Below, piece by piece: positions 3,655-33,089 of a DNA stretch of 41,375 nucleotides. Positions within the stretch are counted from its first letter, which is position 1, and every line of letters starts with the position of its first letter. Under the pieces are notes generated by a model that was not told the origin of the DNA, did not search any database, and was given only the letters and a program-made list of their open reading frames with translations. The position numbers and the translations under genes are program-made. This DNA is from Planctomycetota bacterium (GTDB taxonomy: Bacteria > Planctomycetota > MHYJ01 > JACPRB01): positions 1 to 41,375 of the forward strand of contig JACPRC010000118.1 in the NCBI GenBank assembly GCA_016190175.1. The letters run 5' to 3'.

Positions 3655-4626
3655 ATGAGCGCGCTCCTCATTCTGCTCTTCGTGCAGGACGGCAACCTGG
3701 TCCAGAACCCCGGCTTCGAGGACGGCCGGAAGGACCCCGCCCACTGGGACCGATGCGACGGACTCACGACCTTCTGGGAGAAGGACCCGCTGCGCCCCGG
3801 CAAGTGCATCCGCGTCTTCTCGCGCATCCACATCGACGACTACCACAAGCGGCTGGAGGAGATGAAGCTGGAGAATCCGCCGCCGCCGTCGAAACCGCGC
3901 GAGATCAAGGGCAAGGGCTACGACACGGTCGGAGGGCTCGACGGCGTCGGCTACTGGTCCGACTGGATCGACCTGAAGGCGGGGATGAGATACACGCTCA
4001 CCGCGGACGTGCGCTCCGAGGGCGGCAAGCCCAAGATCTTCGTCAAGGGGTACTCCGAGCTGCCCGTCGAGATCGACGACAACGGCAAGGCGAAGAAGGT
4101 TCTGATGCGGCGCGTGACCTTCAAGATCTACCTCGACTGCGACGGCGGCGACAAGTGGAAGACGAGCACCGTCACCTTCTGCCCCACGCACGACCGCGAG
4201 GACGTGAAGTGGGCACGCGTGATGCTCTACGGCTATTGGCCCGCGCAGAACTACTGGTTCGACAACATCCGCATCGTCGAAGCAGGCAAGGACCCCGAGG
4301 CGCCGAAGCGATGGGCCGCGCTCAAGGAGAAGGCGGAACAGCAGCAGCGGTCCGAGCGCGAGGCGCAGGTGAAGGAGGCGCGCTACTGCCTCGCGTACGT
4401 CCGCAAGGGGATCGAGCGGTACAAGGCGGACGTCGGCTCCCTCCCGCCGGGCCTGCGTGCGCTCGTCGAGGACCCAGGCGATCCGAAGTGGTGCGGCCCG
4501 TACGTCCTCGAGCTGGGCGACGATCCGTGGGGGAAGCCGTACCAGTACAAGCAGACGTCGGCCGGCTACGCGCTGAAGTCGCTGGGACCCGACGGGGCGG
4601 AGGGGGGCGGGGACGACGTCGAGTAG
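3655..4626 (+). CDS. Secreted-type protein: carbohydrate-binding-like N-terminal domain plus GspG-like C-terminal domain
   Basis: N-terminal NLVQNPGFEDG... module. C-terminal YKADVGSLPPGLRALVEDPGDPKWCGPYVL...DDPWGKPYQYK...SLGPDGAEGGGDDVE matches the type II secretion GspG C-terminal pattern. Confidence 0.65.
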   Translation: MSALLILLFVQDGNLVQNPGFEDGRKDPAHWDRCDGLTTFWEKDPLRPGKCIRVFSRIHIDDYHKRLEEMKLENPPPPSKPREIKGKGYDTVGGLDGVGYWSDWIDLKAGMRYTLTADVRSEGGKPKIFVKGYSELPVEIDDNGKAKKVLMRRVTFKIYLDCDGGDKWKTSTVTFCPTHDREDVKWARVMLYGYWPAQNYWFDNIRIVEAGKDPEAPKRWAALKEKAEQQQRSEREAQVKEARYCLAYVRKGIERYKADVGSLPPGLRALVEDPGDPKWCGPYVLELGDDPWGKPYQYKQTSAGYALKSLGPDGAEGGGDDVE

Positions 4627-4647: not shown

Positions 4648-4727
4648 GGGGAGACCCGGAGACAAGGAGATCAAGAGGCCGCGAGACATGGAGACCCGGA
4701 GACAGGGAGACCAGGGGATCGGGAGGC
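4648..4727. repeat. Degenerate 8-nt tandem array (NNGGAGAC) x10
   Basis: ggggagac|ccggagac|aaggagat|caagaggc|cgcgagac|atggagac|ccggagac|agggagac|caggggat|cgggaggc. Confidence 0.85.
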
Positions 4728-4778
4728 GGGGGGGCCGCGCGACGTCCTCGGCGTTGCCCCGTGGCGACCGCGCGCCTG

Positions 4779-4850
4779 CTGACCGGCGGTCATTTCCTGA
4801 CTCTCAGTCAGTGTATGACTCGCGGTCCGTCTCTGACCGCGGATCTCGGG
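4779..4850. repeat. Degenerate 18-nt tandem array x4
   Basis: CTGACCGGCGGTCATTTC|CTGACTCTCAGTCAGTGT|ATGACTCGCGGTCCGTCT|CTGACCGCGGATCTCGGG; TGAC cores at 4780, 4798, 4816, 4834. Confidence 0.75.
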
Positions 4851-4863
4851 AGGGGCGGGGACG

Positions 4864-6858
4864 ATGTTGAGCAGCCTCGCGATCCTCCTGCTGGCGCAGG
4901 CCGCCGACTGGTGGAATCCCGACTGGTCCCACCGCCGCACGATCTCCGTCACCGACACCGTCCGCGGATCCCACGCCGCCGACCTCGCCCTCGTCGAAGT
5001 CCCCACGCTCGGCGTCGCGAATCCCGACGGAAGCGACTACCGCATCATCGACCGCGAGGGCAAGGAAATCCCCGTCCGCGTCGTCGCGAGCGGCTTCGAG
5101 GACCGCGCGCTCCTCGCCTTCGAAGTCGAGTATCGCGGCAACTACACGCTGTACTTCGGCAACCCCAGGGCGAAGGCGCCCGCGCAGGCGCCGGAGTTCC
5201 GCGCCGGCCTGATCCTCGAGGTCCGCGAGCTCGGGCAAGGCAATCCCCGCGACTGGCGTGGGATGCAGAAGCTCCTCGACGCGAGCCCCAAGGTCCTCGG
5301 CCGCTGGTGGGTGCCGGGCATCGCTCTCGGCTTCAACCCGATGGGACCGTGGGACCGCGGGATCTTCCTCTTCACCGGCACGCTGTACTGTCCGACGGAC
5401 GGCACGTATGCGTTCGCCACGAACTCGTTCGACGCCTCCTTCGTGCTCATCGACGGGCAGGTCGTGGCGGAATGGCCCGGGTGGCACGGCGCGGGGGGCG
5501 GGGAGCGGGGCGGCCACGAGGGCAAGATCGAGCTGAAGGCGGGGCCGCACCGCATCGAGTACGTGAACGCGTTTCGCAGCCACGGCGCCTGCTCCGCCGG
5601 CTGGCAGCGCCCCGGCGACAAGCGGCTCGCTCCCTTCCAGCGCGAGGCCTTCGTGGGCTACTACGTGGCGCGGCCGGGGCCAGCGGAGTCGAAGGAAGGG
5701 CCCGTCGCCGACTTCGAGTGGATCCTCGACGACGACCTCGGGCTCGAAGGGCGCCGCGTCACCGCCGTCCGGTTCCTGCCGCTCCTCCGGGGCAAGAACT
5801 GCCGGTGGTCCTTCGGCGACGGCGTCACGAGTGTCGAGACGTCGCCCGTCCACGTCTTCCTGGAGGCGTCCGTCTTCGACGTCGCGCTGGAAGTGGACGG
5901 GAAGAAGACGGCGCAGAGGGTCCGCGTCGCGCCCGCGCGCGGCCACCTGGGCAAGGGGTACGAACGCCGGATCGCCGATTACGCGGACCGGATCCACGCG
6001 TACTCGACCGAAGGGCTTTCCGCCGCCGCGTGCTTCGAGATGGGGATGATCTGCCACGAGGCGCGGCGCACGGATTCCGCGATGCGCGCCTTCCGGGCGG
6101 CGCTCGAGAAGGGCTGGAAGCCCGCGAACGCCGAGGAAGGGCGCTGGATCCTGCGCCTCTACGAGCTCTACCGCGACGCGGGGAAGTACGACGACGCCGT
6201 CTGGGTCTGCGACCATGTCCTCAAGTCGCAGCCCGCGGACGCGATCGCGGCGACCGCGCTCGCGCTGAAGGCGGAGATCCTGTACGACTACCAGGACCGC
6301 CGCGACGAGGCGGAGGCCTGCTGCAAACTCGTCCTCGAGAAGCACCGCGCCGCGGGCACGGACTTCGTGCGGTGGGCCTACATCCGCAGCGGCGAGCTCG
6401 CGCTCGCGCGCGGCGACCGCGACGGGGCGAAGAAGGTCCTCGAGGACGCGCAGTACTCCGACAAGTGGAAGAAGTGGACGGGCGACTTCGACCTGAGCGA
6501 GGGGGCCCACTCCATCAATTTCGAGGAGTACCTGCGGAAGGGCGAGTTCGAGGCTGCGTTCAAGGAGGTCGCGTCCTGGACGTGGGAGAAGCCGGCGGAG
6601 ATCTTGCGCGGCACCCCGCGCCACATGCGCGGACGCGTCTTCCTGGCGATGAAGAAGCACGAGCTCGCGGTGCGGGAGTTCGAGCGCGCCCTCGCCGCGG
6701 ACCCGCAGGCGCCGTTCCTCGACGAGGCGCTCTTCTGGAAGGGCGAGGCGCACCTGGCGCTCAAGCAGGCCGACAAGGCGCGCGAGTGCTTCGAGCGCAT
6801 CGTGCGCGAGTTCCCGGAATCCAGTCTCGCCGCGAAGGCGAAGGAGAAGCTGAAGTAG
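4864..6858 (+). CDS. Multidomain extracellular protein: DUF2341-like, PA14-like, PKD-like and TPR regions
   Basis: WWNPDWSHRRTISV (DUF2341-like). GTLYCPTDGTYAFATNSFDASFVLIDG (PA14-like). CRWSFGDGVTSVETSPVHVF (PKD). C-terminal TPRs including AVREFERALAADPQAPFLDEALFWKGEAHLALKQADKARECFERIVREFPES. Confidence 0.75.
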   Translation: MLSSLAILLLAQAADWWNPDWSHRRTISVTDTVRGSHAADLALVEVPTLGVANPDGSDYRIIDREGKEIPVRVVASGFEDRALLAFEVEYRGNYTLYFGNPRAKAPAQAPEFRAGLILEVRELGQGNPRDWRGMQKLLDASPKVLGRWWVPGIALGFNPMGPWDRGIFLFTGTLYCPTDGTYAFATNSFDASFVLIDGQVVAEWPGWHGAGGGERGGHEGKIELKAGPHRIEYVNAFRSHGACSAGWQRPGDKRLAPFQREAFVGYYVARPGPAESKEGPVADFEWILDDDLGLEGRRVTAVRFLPLLRGKNCRWSFGDGVTSVETSPVHVFLEASVFDVALEVDGKKTAQRVRVAPARGHLGKGYERRIADYADRIHAYSTEGLSAAACFEMGMICHEARRTDSAMRAFRAALEKGWKPANAEEGRWILRLYELYRDAGKYDDAVWVCDHVLKSQPADAIAATALALKAEILYDYQDRRDEAEACCKLVLEKHRAAGTDFVRWAYIRSGELALARGDRDGAKKVLEDAQYSDKWKKWTGDFDLSEGAHSINFEEYLRKGEFEAAFKEVASWTWEKPAEILRGTPRHMRGRVFLAMKKHELAVREFERALAADPQAPFLDEALFWKGEAHLALKQADKARECFERIVREFPESSLAAKAKEKLK

Positions 6859-11620: not shown

Positions 11621-12940
<1,320 letters not shown>

Positions 12941-12944
12941 GTCG

Positions 12945-13022
12945 TCAGCCATCAGCGTTCAGCTCTCAGCCGTCTGCTGATCGCCGGTGGCTGATTGCTG
13001 GTTGCTGATTGCTGATTGCTGA
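12945..13022. repeat. Palindrome with 7-nt periodic arms (TCAGCNN)n ... (NNGCTGA)n
   Basis: TCAGCCA|TCAGCGT|TCAGCTC|TCAGCCG ... TGGCTGA|TTGCTGG|TTGCTGA|TTGCTGA|TTGCTGA. Confidence 0.9.
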
Positions 13023-13027
13023 GATCC

Positions 13028-13918
13028 ATGCGTGCGGTCACGGAGTTGCTTCCGCCGGCGGCGCTCGCCCGCTTCGCCAACCTCGACCTCGTCGCGCGCT
13101 GGATCGTCGAAGGCTTCCTCTCCGGCCTCCACAAGTCGCCCTACCACGGCTTCAGCGTCGAGTTCGCCGAGTACCGGCAGTACACGCCCGGCGACGACCT
13201 GCGCCACTTCGACTGGAAGGCCCTCGCGAAGTCGGACCGCCACTACGTGAAGAAGTACCACTCGGAGACGAACCTCCGCGCGCACGTCCTCGTGGACTGC
13301 TCCGCCTCCATGGGATTCGGCGAGCCCGCGACGAAGCTCCGCTACTCGCAGGCCGTCGCCGCCGCGATCGCCTTCCTCATGGTCCGGCAGCAGGACGCCG
13401 TCGGCGCCGCGCTCTTCGCCGACGAGATCGTGCGATACCTCCCGCCGAAATCGTCGTCGCGCCACTTCCGCGATCTCCTCACCGTGCTGGACTCCGCGAA
13501 GCCGCAGAAGACAACGAACATGAGCAAGGCGCTCCACTATCTCGCGGAGACGGTGAAGTCGCGCGGGCTCTTCGTGATCCTGTCGGACCTTTACGACGAC
13601 GTGGACGCCGTGGTCGCGGGGCTGCGCCACCTGCGCTTCCGCAAGCACGAGATCATCCTCTTCCACATCCTCGACCACAAGGAGGTGGACTTCCCGTACC
13701 GCGTGCTCTCCGAGTTCCGGGACCTGGAGAGCGGCGAGCGCGTCCAGGTCCTGCCGATGGCGCACCGGCCCGCGTACCTCGCCGCGCTCGACGCGTTCGC
13801 GCGGAAGATGCGGCAGGAGTGCTCCGCGATGCTGGTGGACTACCAGCTCGTGGACACCGCGGTGCCGTTCGACCGCGTGCTCGCGCAGTACCTTGCCAAG
13901 CGGCAGCGGGTGGGGTGA
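13028..13918 (+). CDS. DUF58 domain protein
   Basis: SPYHGFSVEFAEYRQYTPGDDLRHFDWKALAKSDRHYVKKYHSETNLRAHVLVDCSASMGFG is the canonical DUF58 motif. Confidence 0.93.
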   Translation: MRAVTELLPPAALARFANLDLVARWIVEGFLSGLHKSPYHGFSVEFAEYRQYTPGDDLRHFDWKALAKSDRHYVKKYHSETNLRAHVLVDCSASMGFGEPATKLRYSQAVAAAIAFLMVRQQDAVGAALFADEIVRYLPPKSSSRHFRDLLTVLDSAKPQKTTNMSKALHYLAETVKSRGLFVILSDLYDDVDAVVAGLRHLRFRKHEIILFHILDHKEVDFPYRVLSEFRDLESGERVQVLPMAHRPAYLAALDAFARKMRQECSAMLVDYQLVDTAVPFDRVLAQYLAKRQRVG

Positions 13919-26814: not shown

Positions 26815-28734
26815 CTATCCAAGAAGCACCCGATAAAGCAGGTAGCCCAGCGTCGCCAGCACGCCGACGACGATCCCGCCGGCCGCGACGTTCACCGTCC
26901 CCGCCTGTGCCCGGCGCAGGCCGCCGCCCGCCAGGGACACGGCCCTGCCCGTCCCGCCGACGAGGAGCGTGTCGATGAAGAGCTTGTCGAAGACGAACCA
27001 GACGCCCGCGGCCGCCGTCTTGATCGGCGCGATGACGGTCCAGAAGTAGATCTCGTCGACGTAGAACTTGTTCGCGACGAGCCCGTGGAGCCGCCTCCCG
27101 GGTCCCTCCACGAATCGGGTCAACCCCGCGCGCCACGGCCCGTAGAGGAGGACGGCGCCGACGAACCCCAGCGCGAACGCGCCGACGGAGTAGGCCAGCG
27201 CCGCGTGGTGCGCCGCGGGACCCGGCGACGCGTGCGCCCGCCAGACCGGTTTCAGGAGATGCTCCATGCCCTCCTGGAGATGGCCGCCGAACGCAGACAG
27301 GACCGCGAGGATCGCCAGCGGCACGAAGAGGATCGGGCCGGTCTTGTGCGGGTGACGATCGCCGGCCGGGCCGAAGAAGACGAGGAGGATCAGGCGCGTC
27401 GTGTAGAAGGCGGTGCAGAGCACCGTGACGACGAGCATGCACCACGTCAGTTTCCACGCGGGCCCGGCACGGCTCATCCGGTCGAAGACGCCCACGAGGA
27501 TCGCGTCCTTGGAGTAGAAGCCGGAGAAGCCCCAGCAGCCCGCGAGCGCCAGGCCGCCGATCGCGAAGACGAGGAAGACCCAGCGCATCTGCGGCGCCAG
27601 GCCGCCCATCTTCCGGATGTCCTGCTCGCCGCCCAGCGCGTGGATGATCGCGCCCGCGCCGAGGAAGAGGAGGGCCTTGAAGAAGGCGTGGGTCACGAGG
27701 TGGAACATCCCCGCCGTGAACGTCATCGCCGCCATGCCGCAGAACATGAAACCAAGTTGGCTGATCGTCGAGTACGCCAGCACCTTCTTGATGTCGTTCT
27801 GCGCGATCGCGATCACGCCGGCCAGGAGCGCCGTCGCCGCCGCCACGATGCCGATCCCCGCGAGCACCGCGGGCGCCAGGACGTAGACGAAGTTGAGCCG
27901 GGCGATCATGTAAATCCCGGCGGTCACCATCGTCGCCGCATGGATGAGGGCGGAGACGGGCGTGGGGCCCGCCATCGCGTCGGGGAGCCAGACGTAGAGC
28001 GGGATCTGCGCGCTCTTGCCCGCCGCTCCGATCGCCAGGCACACCGTCGCGAACTCGATCACGCCCCCCGCGGTCCAGCCCTGGAACGGACCCGCGGTCA
28101 GTTTCTGACCGAGAGTCAGCGCCGAGACCTTGAGCCGCAGCCCCTCGATCCCGAGCGTCCCGGCCAGCGAGAAAAGGGCGAACATCCCGATCAGGAACCC
28201 GAGGTCGCCGATCCGGTTCGTGATGAACGCCTTCTGCCCGGCCTCCGCGTTCGGCATGTGCTTGTAGAGGTAGCCGATGAGGAGGTACGAGCAGAGCCCC
28301 ACGCCCTCCCAGCCCACGAAGAGGAGCGGCAGGCTGTCCCCGAGGACGAGGACGAGCATCGCGAAGAGGAAGAGGTTCAGGTACGAGAAGTAGCGCCAGA
28401 CGCCCTCGTCCTCGTGCATGTAGCCGACGGAGTAGAGGTGGATGAGCGACCCGACGCCCGTGATGACGAGGACCATCACGGCCGAGAGGCCGTCGAGATG
28501 GAGCCCCACGTCGACTGAGAATTCCCCCGCGGCCATCCAGGAGAAGTACGTGAACGCCGCCGTCCCCCCGTGGCGGACGTGGAAGAAGGCCGCCAGCGCC
28601 AGGCCGAACGAGGCGAACGGACCGAGCACCGCGATCGCCTCGACGACGACGCGCGGGAGGCGCTTCCCGAAGAGCCCGTTGATCAGGAAGCCGGCCAGCG
28701 GCAGGATGGGGATGAGCCAGAGGATGTCAGCCAT
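26815..28734 (-). CDS. nuoL: NADH-quinone oxidoreductase subunit L
   Basis: GWEGVGLCSYLLIGYLY...FITNRIGDLGFLIGMF...KSAQIPLYVWLPDAMAGPTPVSALIHAATMVTAGIYMIARL. Confidence 0.96.
   Translation of the reverse strand: MADILWLIPILPLAGFLINGLFGKRLPRVVVEAIAVLGPFASFGLALAAFFHVRHGGTAAFTYFSWMAAGEFSVDVGLHLDGLSAVMVLVITGVGSLIHLYSVGYMHEDEGVWRYFSYLNLFLFAMLVLVLGDSLPLLFVGWEGVGLCSYLLIGYLYKHMPNAEAGQKAFITNRIGDLGFLIGMFALFSLAGTLGIEGLRLKVSALTLGQKLTAGPFQGWTAGGVIEFATVCLAIGAAGKSAQIPLYVWLPDAMAGPTPVSALIHAATMVTAGIYMIARLNFVYVLAPAVLAGIGIVAAATALLAGVIAIAQNDIKKVLAYSTISQLGFMFCGMAAMTFTAGMFHLVTHAFFKALLFLGAGAIIHALGGEQDIRKMGGLAPQMRWVFLVFAIGGLALAGCWGFSGFYSKDAILVGVFDRMSRAGPAWKLTWCMLVVTVLCTAFYTTRLILLVFFGPAGDRHPHKTGPILFVPLAILAVLSAFGGHLQEGMEHLLKPVWRAHASPGPAAHHAALAYSVGAFALGFVGAVLLYGPWRAGLTRFVEGPGRRLHGLVANKFYVDEIYFWTVIAPIKTAAAGVWFVFDKLFIDTLLVGGTGRAVSLAGGGLRRAQAGTVNVAAGGIVVGVLATLGYLLYRVLLG
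28084..28119 (-). repeat. Two in-frame 18-nt repeat units inside nuoL
   Basis: Minus strand CTGACTCTCGGTCAGAAA|CTGACCGCGGGTCCGTTC, encoding LTLGQK|LTAGPF; same family as 4779-4850. Confidence 0.65.
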
Positions 28735-28761
28735 CAGCCATCAGCTTTCAGCAATCAACCC
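28727..28761. repeat. One-sided 7-nt periodic array at the nuoL/nuoK junction
   Basis: TCAGCCA|TCAGCCA|TCAGCTT|TCAGCAA|TCAACCC. Confidence 0.8.
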
Positions 28762-29555: not shown

Positions 29556-29706
29556 AAGAACAGAGAAGAAAGAACCAAGAAGAGAGAGGGCGGGGGACGG
29601 ATCCCCCGCGCCCCCTCACGACGGGGCGTCCGAGAGAGAGGAGGGGGTTCGGGGGAGGCTTCCCCCGCCCCTTTCTTCTTGGTTCTTTGTTCTTTGTTCT
29701 TTCCTC
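29556..29706. repeat. ~150-bp branched palindrome with 7-nt periodic arms between nuoI and nuoJ
   Basis: Left arm AGAACAG|AGAAGAA|AGAACCA|AGAAGAG; right arm reverse complement AAAGAACAAAGAACCAAGAAGAAAG. Core hairpins GCGGGGGA-CGGA-TCCCCCGC and CGGGGGA-GGCT-TCCCCCG. Confidence 0.85.
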
Positions 29707-30121
29707 ATCGGTTCATGAGCTTCTGCAGGTCGTAGATCTTCTCCTCCCTCGTGGTTGCGATCTGCGTGAACGTCGGCGTCAGCTCGATCGCGTCGCACGG
29801 GCACGCCTCCTCGCACATCCCGCAGTAGATGCACTTCAGCAGGTCGATCTCGAACGAGACGGGGATCTTGTCCCGGTCGGGCCACGGGGACGGCCCCGCG
29901 ACGATCCGGATGCACTCGGCGGGGCACGCCGTCGCGCACATGAAGCACGCGACGCATTTCATCCGTCCCTGCTCGTCCTTCTTCAGCCGGTGCTCGCCCC
30001 GGTAGCCTTTTCGCGGGATGTACTTCTCCTCGGGATACTCCAGCGTCGCCTTCTTGCCCACGAGGTGCTGGAACGTCCGGAACATCCCCTTGAACAGCGA
30101 CCCGATGTTGTAGTTGGTCAC
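29705..30121 (-). CDS. nuoI: NADH-quinone oxidoreductase subunit I
   Basis: Two 4Fe-4S motifs: CVACFMCATACPAEC and CIYCGMCEEACPCDAI. GTG start overlaps the nuoH stop. Confidence 0.95.
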   Translation of the reverse strand: MTNYNIGSLFKGMFRTFQHLVGKKATLEYPEEKYIPRKGYRGEHRLKKDEQGRMKCVACFMCATACPAECIRIVAGPSPWPDRDKIPVSFEIDLLKCIYCGMCEEACPCDAIELTPTFTQIATTREEKIYDLQKLMNR

Positions 30122-32635: not shown

Positions 32636-33089
32636 ATCCAGCCGCCAAAACGCCAAGACGCCAAAGGGCCCATCATGAGAGGACGACCCTCTGCAAACCG
32701 TCAGGTAGCAGAACCTCGTTGAAGTTCATCAGCAACCCGAGATGATGGCCCGTCGCCTTCAGGTACGATATCACTTGCGCCTTGTGGACCGGCGCCAGAC
32801 GGTCCGCCGCCTTGATCTCGACGACAAGTCTTCCCGCGACGAGGAAATCCAGTCGCCCTTCCACCACGGGACGCCCCTTGTACTTCACCTGAAACGGCTT
32901 CTGTCTTTCGAACGGGATTCCCCGCTCGCCGAATTCGATCGCAAGCGCCTTCTCATAGGCGGACTCCAGATGCCCGGGGCCAAGCACCGTATGTACCTCG
33001 ATCGCGGCTCCGATGACACGGTGCGCGAGATCGTCCAGTTCCTCTTCTGGTTCCCGTCTTGGCGTTTTGGCGCTTTGGCGGTTCATATC
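32633..33089. mobile_element. Putative insertion unit carrying a GxxExxY gene, with inverted 8-nt periodic termini and CATATC direct flanks
   Basis: CATATC at 32633-32638 and 33084-33089. CGCCAAAACGCCAAGACG (32643-32660) is a perfect inverted repeat of CGTCTTGGCGTTTTGGCG (33055-33072). Confidence 0.65.
32673..33086 (-). CDS. GxxExxY family protein (PD-(D/E)XK-like)
   Basis: AHRVIGAAIEVHTVLGPGHLESAYEKALAIEF...RLDFLVAGRLVVEIKAADRLAPVHKAQVISYLKATGHHLGLLMNFN. Confidence 0.95.
   Translation of the reverse strand: MNRQSAKTPRREPEEELDDLAHRVIGAAIEVHTVLGPGHLESAYEKALAIEFGERGIPFERQKPFQVKYKGRPVVEGRLDFLVAGRLVVEIKAADRLAPVHKAQVISYLKATGHHLGLLMNFNEVLLPDGLQRVVLS

Follow-up and report, generated by a model that had tools for sequence, protein, structure and literature searches.

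What is a palindrome of short repeats doing between two neighboring genes of a planctomycete, and how did it get there? The question is raised by a stretch of 41,375 nucleotides (the window; contig JACPRC010000118.1 of assembly GCA_016190175.1), in which an FHA-MoxR ATPase gene is followed on the same strand by a DUF58/vWA gene, with facing arrays of heptamers occupying almost all of the DNA between them.

The array in the MoxR-DUF58 spacer

The FHA-MoxR (AAA_3) gene runs from 11621 to 12940 on the forward strand and matches the Pfam families FHA (8e-16), AAA_3 (2e-62) and AAA_lid_2. Its TGA stop codon (12938-12940) lies 4 nt ahead of the array, and the ATG of the DUF58/vWA gene (13028-13918, forward strand; Pfam DUF58, 2.6e-49) lies 6 nt past it. 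Genes were called with a home-made, retrained caller that agrees with Pfam-confirmed genes. Among named relatives, those closest to the MoxR protein come from Planctomycetota bins, and the source is planctomycete-like.

A palindrome of TCAGCNN and NNGCTGA heptamers filling this spacer had been reported in the initial annotation and is indeed present far beyond chance. The array takes up 78 nt (12945-13022) of the 87-nt spacer. Its left arm (12945-12972, forward strand) consists of four TCAGCNN heptamers, with CA, GT, TC and CG as their free bases. These are followed by an apical part (12973-12988), made up of TC, a TGCTGAT unit and a degenerate CGCCGGT unit, that is predicted to fold as the tip of the hairpin, and by a right arm (12989-13022, reverse strand) reading GGCTGAT, TGCTGGT, TGCTGAT, TGCTGAT and TGCTGA, in which one unit has GCTGG instead of GCTGA. 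The four left heptamers had been counted correctly, but the five units assigned to the right side are too few: TRF (tandem repeat detection) finds a period-7 array of 6.9 copies at 12975-13022, and about six NNGCTGA units face the left arm. A second TCAGCNN array in the window, at 28727-28752 on the forward strand, has a left arm only (TCAGCCA, TCAGCCA, TCAGCTT and TCAGC).

Transcription through the spacer is predicted to yield an RNA hairpin (12938-13027, forward strand) that begins at the MoxR stop codon and ends a few nucleotides short of the DUF58 start. Folding of 12938-13030 gives -46.8 kcal/mol, compared with -30.7 +/- 3.2 kcal/mol for shuffled sequences (z = -4.98). No Rfam covariance model matches at its gathering score anywhere in the window.

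A dispersed family of intergenic palindromes

The window array belongs to an abundant, dispersed family of palindromes with arms of 7-base repeats. From the source genome (G000), 3.72 Mb were recovered (64% complete), and the pattern TCAGCNNTCAGCNNTCAGC, which requires three in-phase TCAGC pentamers, has 376 matches there, compared with none for the reversed control. In a sample of 1.41 Mb, most of whose contigs were picked for carrying pattern matches, 98 arrays were read: 74 with a forward arm followed by a reverse arm, one with two such pairs in succession, 23 single arms, and none in the reversed order. The TCAGC arm thus precedes the GCTGA arm in 74 of the 75 two-armed copies, and not one of the 98 arrays lies mostly within a gene. 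Contigs chosen regardless of matches carry 18 arrays in 454 kb, which corresponds to about 150 in the recovered genome. An array unique in its genome, or an unpaired microsatellite, had been named beforehand as the outcome that would contradict the palindrome interpretation; instead, there are many copies, and their arms are paired almost everywhere (75 of 98).

Among 246 Planctomycetota genomes, 13 contain the palindrome and the control is zero in all. Large numbers occur only in the source genome (127 pattern places), G033 (62), G004 (17) and G214 (16). The modal arm length is about four units, in the source genome and in G033 alike. The TCAGC copies of G033 often have in common an AT-rich loop with TTAATATT-like cores.

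Could the array be an ordinary microsatellite, grown by slippage, that faces a second one by chance? A few single arms do look slippage-grown, such as one of 15 units alternating CA and AA as free bases (L046) and one with CA five times over (L042). Across the family, however, adjacent spacer dinucleotides are alike at a frequency of 0.134, compared with 0.121 by chance, the modal arm has about four units, as noted above, and the arm lengths of paired copies are uncorrelated. In addition, no paired copy has its arms reversed, and paired arms exist at periods 7 and 8 only. The chance-level likeness of neighboring spacer dinucleotides excludes recent slippage, as the initial annotation had supposed, and we consider the chance-facing microsatellite very improbable.

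Two single arms (L046:4558-4660 and L185:4911-5065) are exceptionally long, with 15-16 units in which two heptamers alternate, giving a period of 14 and a look of recent slippage. Another planctomycete genome has a long, unpaired array of TCAGCCT and TCAGCAC (G043:C42:119168-119366) that is unlike the palindromic copies.

A transposed subfamily and a majority type

Searching with one copy revealed a subfamily, designated A, of 26 copies of 104 bp with a conserved loop and four heptamers per arm. Its ends are GCAAGCGTTCAG and TGAACGGTTAC, and the element reads GCAAGCGTTCAGCC...GGTGAACGGTTAC. Direct repeats of at least 7 bp flank 12 of the 26 copies, compared with 0.8% for mismatched flanks, and because of this excess we conclude that subfamily A has transposed, with target duplications of about 8 bp. 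Two copies are nested in palindromes of a different unit, AAGAANN (L178 and L166). A further small set consists of five copies with a common GC-rich loop.

The majority type, B, includes the window copy. Its edges are sharp, with RGC-NN-TCAGC at both ends followed by random sequence, and its conserved features are the arms only; a conserved loop is absent. Four direct repeats of at least 6 bp flank type B copies, compared with 2.9 expected, so there is no excess that would indicate target duplication, and target duplications were also sought and not found around the G033 copies. Subfamily A therefore resembles miniature inverted-repeat transposable elements (MITEs) in its conserved 104 bp, terminal inverted repeats, target duplications of about 8 bp and nested insertions. 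Type B, including the window copy, differs from MITEs in lacking both a target duplication and a conserved interior. An autonomous partner was not found for subfamily A either: the 1.41 Mb sample contains no right end without a left end nearby, and searching all of the recovered genome (64% complete) for right ends returned only 22 places and no autonomous element.

Comparison of the junction in relatives had been proposed as a check for empty sites, and such a site exists in the closest named relative with a MoxR-DUF58 pair (L051), whose spacer is about 20 nt long and has no array. A second candidate junction, L052 (JACQVW010000263.1), was rejected as an independent copy. It is identical to the window over about 830 bp (12390-13220) and 61-80% identical on either side, and for this reason it is probably a chimeric contig, formed by co-assembly at the conserved MoxR-DUF58 region; it was left out of the comparison.

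A mobile origin of the palindrome family is likely. For type B, transposition is suggested by the dispersal of copies with arms in common, by their sharp edges and by the empty spacer in the relative. The evidence supports viewing the family as mobile DNA similar to REPs (repetitive extragenic palindromes) and MITEs, non-autonomous, with ends that are arrays of short sites.

Adjacency to stop codons

Type B copies hug stop codons: 36 of 44 stop-facing distances fall within -8 to +5 nt. The largest single class is exactly -2, where a TAG stop is composed of a T and the AG of the element's outer AGC, and TAG is overrepresented at type B stops (21 of 38, compared with 418 of 1199 in the genome; p = 0.009). 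Where the gap between genes is roomy, 10 of 13 type B copies are no more than 12 nt from a stop, compared with 3.7 expected; for subfamily A, which has no preference, the count is 4 of 20 (4.8 expected). Removing the element from same-strand pairs leaves a median residual gap of 6.5 nt for type B and of 90.5 nt for subfamily A. Five of the 44 type B copies lie between divergent genes. The adjacency could reflect targeted insertion, or the retention of message-ending hairpins combined with deletion of the intervening DNA.

A long, stable hairpin right after a stop codon is also what an intrinsic (Rho-independent) terminator between MoxR and DUF58 would provide. That role was rejected, as there is no T-tract (T fraction 0.18; TTTT in none of 38 copies) and no terminator-like match was called at 12945-13022. 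The stem also greatly exceeds a usual terminator stem in length, and in the first sample of 38 copies, 4 lie between convergent and 7 between divergent genes, compared with 31 and 57 of 244 background junctions. We regard termination as scarcely credible here.

Position behind genes likewise recalls REPs, which are moved by Y1 tyrosine transposases (RAYTs) and are, like the present family, dispersed extragenic palindromes often found just 3' of genes (Di Nocera 2013, PMC3733652; RepRanger 2025, PMC12306157). A REP in the strict sense, tagged with GTAG/CGTC, would account for the missing target duplication of type B and for the many copies that start with TAG at the gene end, and Y1 transposases are found in all 12 other carriers of the palindrome. 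However, they are also found in most non-carriers, and no Y1_Tnp was found in the source genome (64% complete). REPs are furthermore single palindromes of 20-40 bp with GTAG/CGTC at one end, whereas the present elements span 60-100 bp, have heptamer arms, and have two like ends (RGC-NN-TCAGC) without a one-sided tag. The T of the apparent TAG belongs to the gene end; it is not enriched at the distal edge, where the base beyond RGC is unconserved. A RAYT/REP identity is thus not supported, and we find it improbable.

Conservation of the motif rather than of the pairing

The arms pair through their fixed pentamers only, a feature that had escaped the initial annotation, as had the transposed subfamily and the stop-codon adjacency. 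In subfamily A, agreement with the consensus is 97.2% for pentamers, 75% for spacer dinucleotides and 80% for the loop. In type B, 93 of 456 units have one change, and 55 of these 93 affect the central A, which becomes G or C. Pentamer changes between facing arms are shared in 5 cases and unshared in 83, giving no sign of compensation. Spacer bases are not complementary across arms in the source genome, and in G033 complementarity (0.05-0.09) lies below the permuted value (0.17). Changes tolerated by G-U pairing (14) are no commoner than those that are not (16). Because spacer complementarity, compensation and G-U asymmetry are all absent, what is conserved in the pentamer is a motif on both strands and not one half of a stem. 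These data argue against an RNA stem constrained by its pairing, although a strong RNA hairpin is still predicted.

This strand-symmetric constraint keeps alive the main rival to our own reading, namely that a DNA-binding protein (IHF/HU or another nucleoid protein, or a regulator) recognizes the double-stranded arms as arrays of sites and that the hairpin is incidental. Conserved pentamers with a tolerant center base fit such sites, as do the three null results for pairing and the arms of about four units in both genomes, and IHF/HU has been proposed for the same layout by Aklujkar et al. (PMC2700814). On the other hand, many unrelated units with the same layout in one genome (see below) would call for many proteins, and adjacency to stops, not to promoters or starts, is unexpected for a chromosome-binding site. 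Binding-site arrays are therefore possible, if rather unlikely.

The same layout built from other units

The initial annotation had pointed to an element at 29.6 kb with a different unit and the same architecture. This element is a palindrome of AAGAANN facing NNTTCTT with a G+C-rich inner stem (29556-29702), ending about 3 nt from the stop codon of a gene on the reverse strand (29705-30121). AAGAANN palindromes form a separate family in the source genome, and elsewhere host the nested 104-bp copies.

To what extent does the layout recur? We scanned the intergenic DNA of the source genome for arrays of at least three units, applying a strict rule for inverted partners. Period 7 occurs in 127 of 668 intergenic regions, 99 of them with an inverted partner, and period 8 in 28 of 668, 5 of them partnered. 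At each of the periods 5, 6 and 9-13 there is no more than one region with a partner, and a peak at period 14 is the double of 7. Besides TCAGCNN, the units include AAGAANN, GTGGTTN, ACGTTCY, TTAGCNN, GACCNNN and GAATCNN, many of them a few bases from a stop codon. G033 has partnered arrays in 37 of 175 regions and a larger set of units; in its intergenic DNA (loci L089-L108), paired heptamer arrays are densely packed and represent at least ten unrelated units, among them TCAGC, ATGAA, ACTCG, AGGTT and AATCG. The architecture thus recurs with other units in both genomes. No such arrays are present in the 42 intergenic regions sampled from G002, a genome of the same family as the source.

One may speculate that architecture, and no particular sequence, sets the class: its arms would be inverted and about four units long, at period 7 or 8 only, with a core of 5-6 nt and 1-2 free bases, many unrelated cores per genome, and delivery to or retention exactly at stop codons. 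A single machinery that recognizes this layout, as regular short duplexes parted by mismatches, would then make and place all of them. We consider this a doubtful, frankly unlikely extension.

The window contains several other repeats. Facing octamer arrays (CGCCAANN and NNTTGGCG) at 32643-32665 and 33055-33080 lie about 390 bp apart and flank a weakly supported ORF of 104 aa (32673-32987, reverse strand). Between the genes at 3655-4626 and 4864-6858, the spacer (4650-4842) is occupied by an octamer array, GGAGACNN, after which comes another repeat, rich in TGACT/AGTCA. Finally, 141-bp tandem repeats within an ORF (195-998) encode repeated TVYAGG..FTTIGG motifs.

Relation to known heptamer and octamer arrays

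The STRR sequences of cyanobacteria are direct arrays of heptamers. They had been used as a comparison for the window array, with the proviso that the arms here face each other; the proviso stands, but there are closer precedents in the facing arrays of Geobacter metallireducens and Xanthomonas. In Beggiatoaceae, TAACTGA repeats form abundant intergenic direct arrays of 2-6 units, mostly just upstream of start codons, and only one of 170 arrays in the BOGUAY genome is an inverted case (MacGregor 2015, PMC4679880). The present family has intergenic heptamers in common with these direct repeats and differs in that most of its arrays are paired and inverted.

In Geobacter metallireducens, 'putative global regulator binding sites' of classes 1-4 consist of GTTGCTYN octamers, four per site, and others of MTYCTGA heptamers, five per site, mostly as opposite-strand pairs with variable spacing and in many copies (Aklujkar et al. 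2009, PMC2700814). The period of 7 and the modal four units found here fit these tandem arrays, whose units are 7 or 8 nt long and number about four or five in each arm; opposite-strand pairing and high copy number are further points in common. The unit sequences and the phylum are different, the Geobacter sites were read as putative IHF/HU sites, and the main text mentions neither target duplications nor a position next to stop codons, nor does it analyze constraint. GGGAATC heptamers in Xanthomonas are intergenic as well, forming 70-75 closely facing array pairs per genome, and on the sense strand they cluster close to stop codons (Rehm et al. 2015, PMC4692102). They differ in having a G-quadruplex-forming unit and longer arrays (14 units in one example), and a transposed subfamily does not appear in the accessible sections of that paper. 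Since facing heptamer or octamer arrays have been described in these two groups, the kind of element is already known. Judged provisionally against the open-access literature, what is new is the family in planctomycetes with its transposed subfamily, its precise adjacency to stop codons, and the separation of motif conservation from pairing.

Possible origin and effect of the array

Our preferred reading, to which we give an even chance, is that the array is a dispersed, non-autonomous palindromic repeat similar to REPs and MITEs, with inverted heptamer arrays at its ends (about four heptamers each, in which TC(A)GC is the fixed pentamer and two bases are free), mobilized via these arrays and kept behind stop codons as a post-stop hairpin. 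The heptamer arrays would be the recognition sites that mobilize the element. Copies landing just 3' of a stop codon would be kept, and the surrounding DNA compacted, as a transcribed hairpin may be harmless or useful there. Against this reading stand type B and G033 copies without target duplications beyond chance, the missing autonomous element, and the absence of visible selection on the RNA stem in the complementarity, compensation and G-U tests.

In the MoxR-DUF58 operon, the likeliest present effect would be that of a post-stop hairpin. It may block ribosome run-on and immediate re-initiation and shield the 3' end of the upstream message, thereby making MoxR and DUF58 less tightly coupled. 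Stable structures behind stop codons govern re-initiation and limit it in a synthetic E. coli operon (Chemla et al. 2020, PMC7518266). REPs within 15 nt of a stop codon affect translation (PMC3733652; PMC12306157), and work cited in PMC12306157 has E. coli REPs less than 16 nt from a stop lowering it. The predicted hairpin resembles these ribosome termination structures in being a stable RNA structure directly behind a stop; they are a general class without a sequence definition, whereas here a repeated DNA element supplies the structure. Chemla et al. also found post-stop structures to be depleted in tight same-strand pairs (PMC7518266), while the present arrays occupy such pairs. For the five type B copies between divergent genes, a role at the 3' end is impossible because of their position.

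So far, reports of dispersed heptamer arrays (Geobacter, Xanthomonas, Beggiatoaceae and cyanobacteria) have been piecemeal and lack a common description. The source genome brings together a transposed subfamily and a majority type bound to stop codons, shows in its constraint pattern that site conservation is distinct from base pairing, and has several unrelated units of like period and layout. It thereby makes testable what causes the period of 7-8 nt, what moves the elements, and whether mobile DNA may serve as a wholesale source of post-stop RNA structures.
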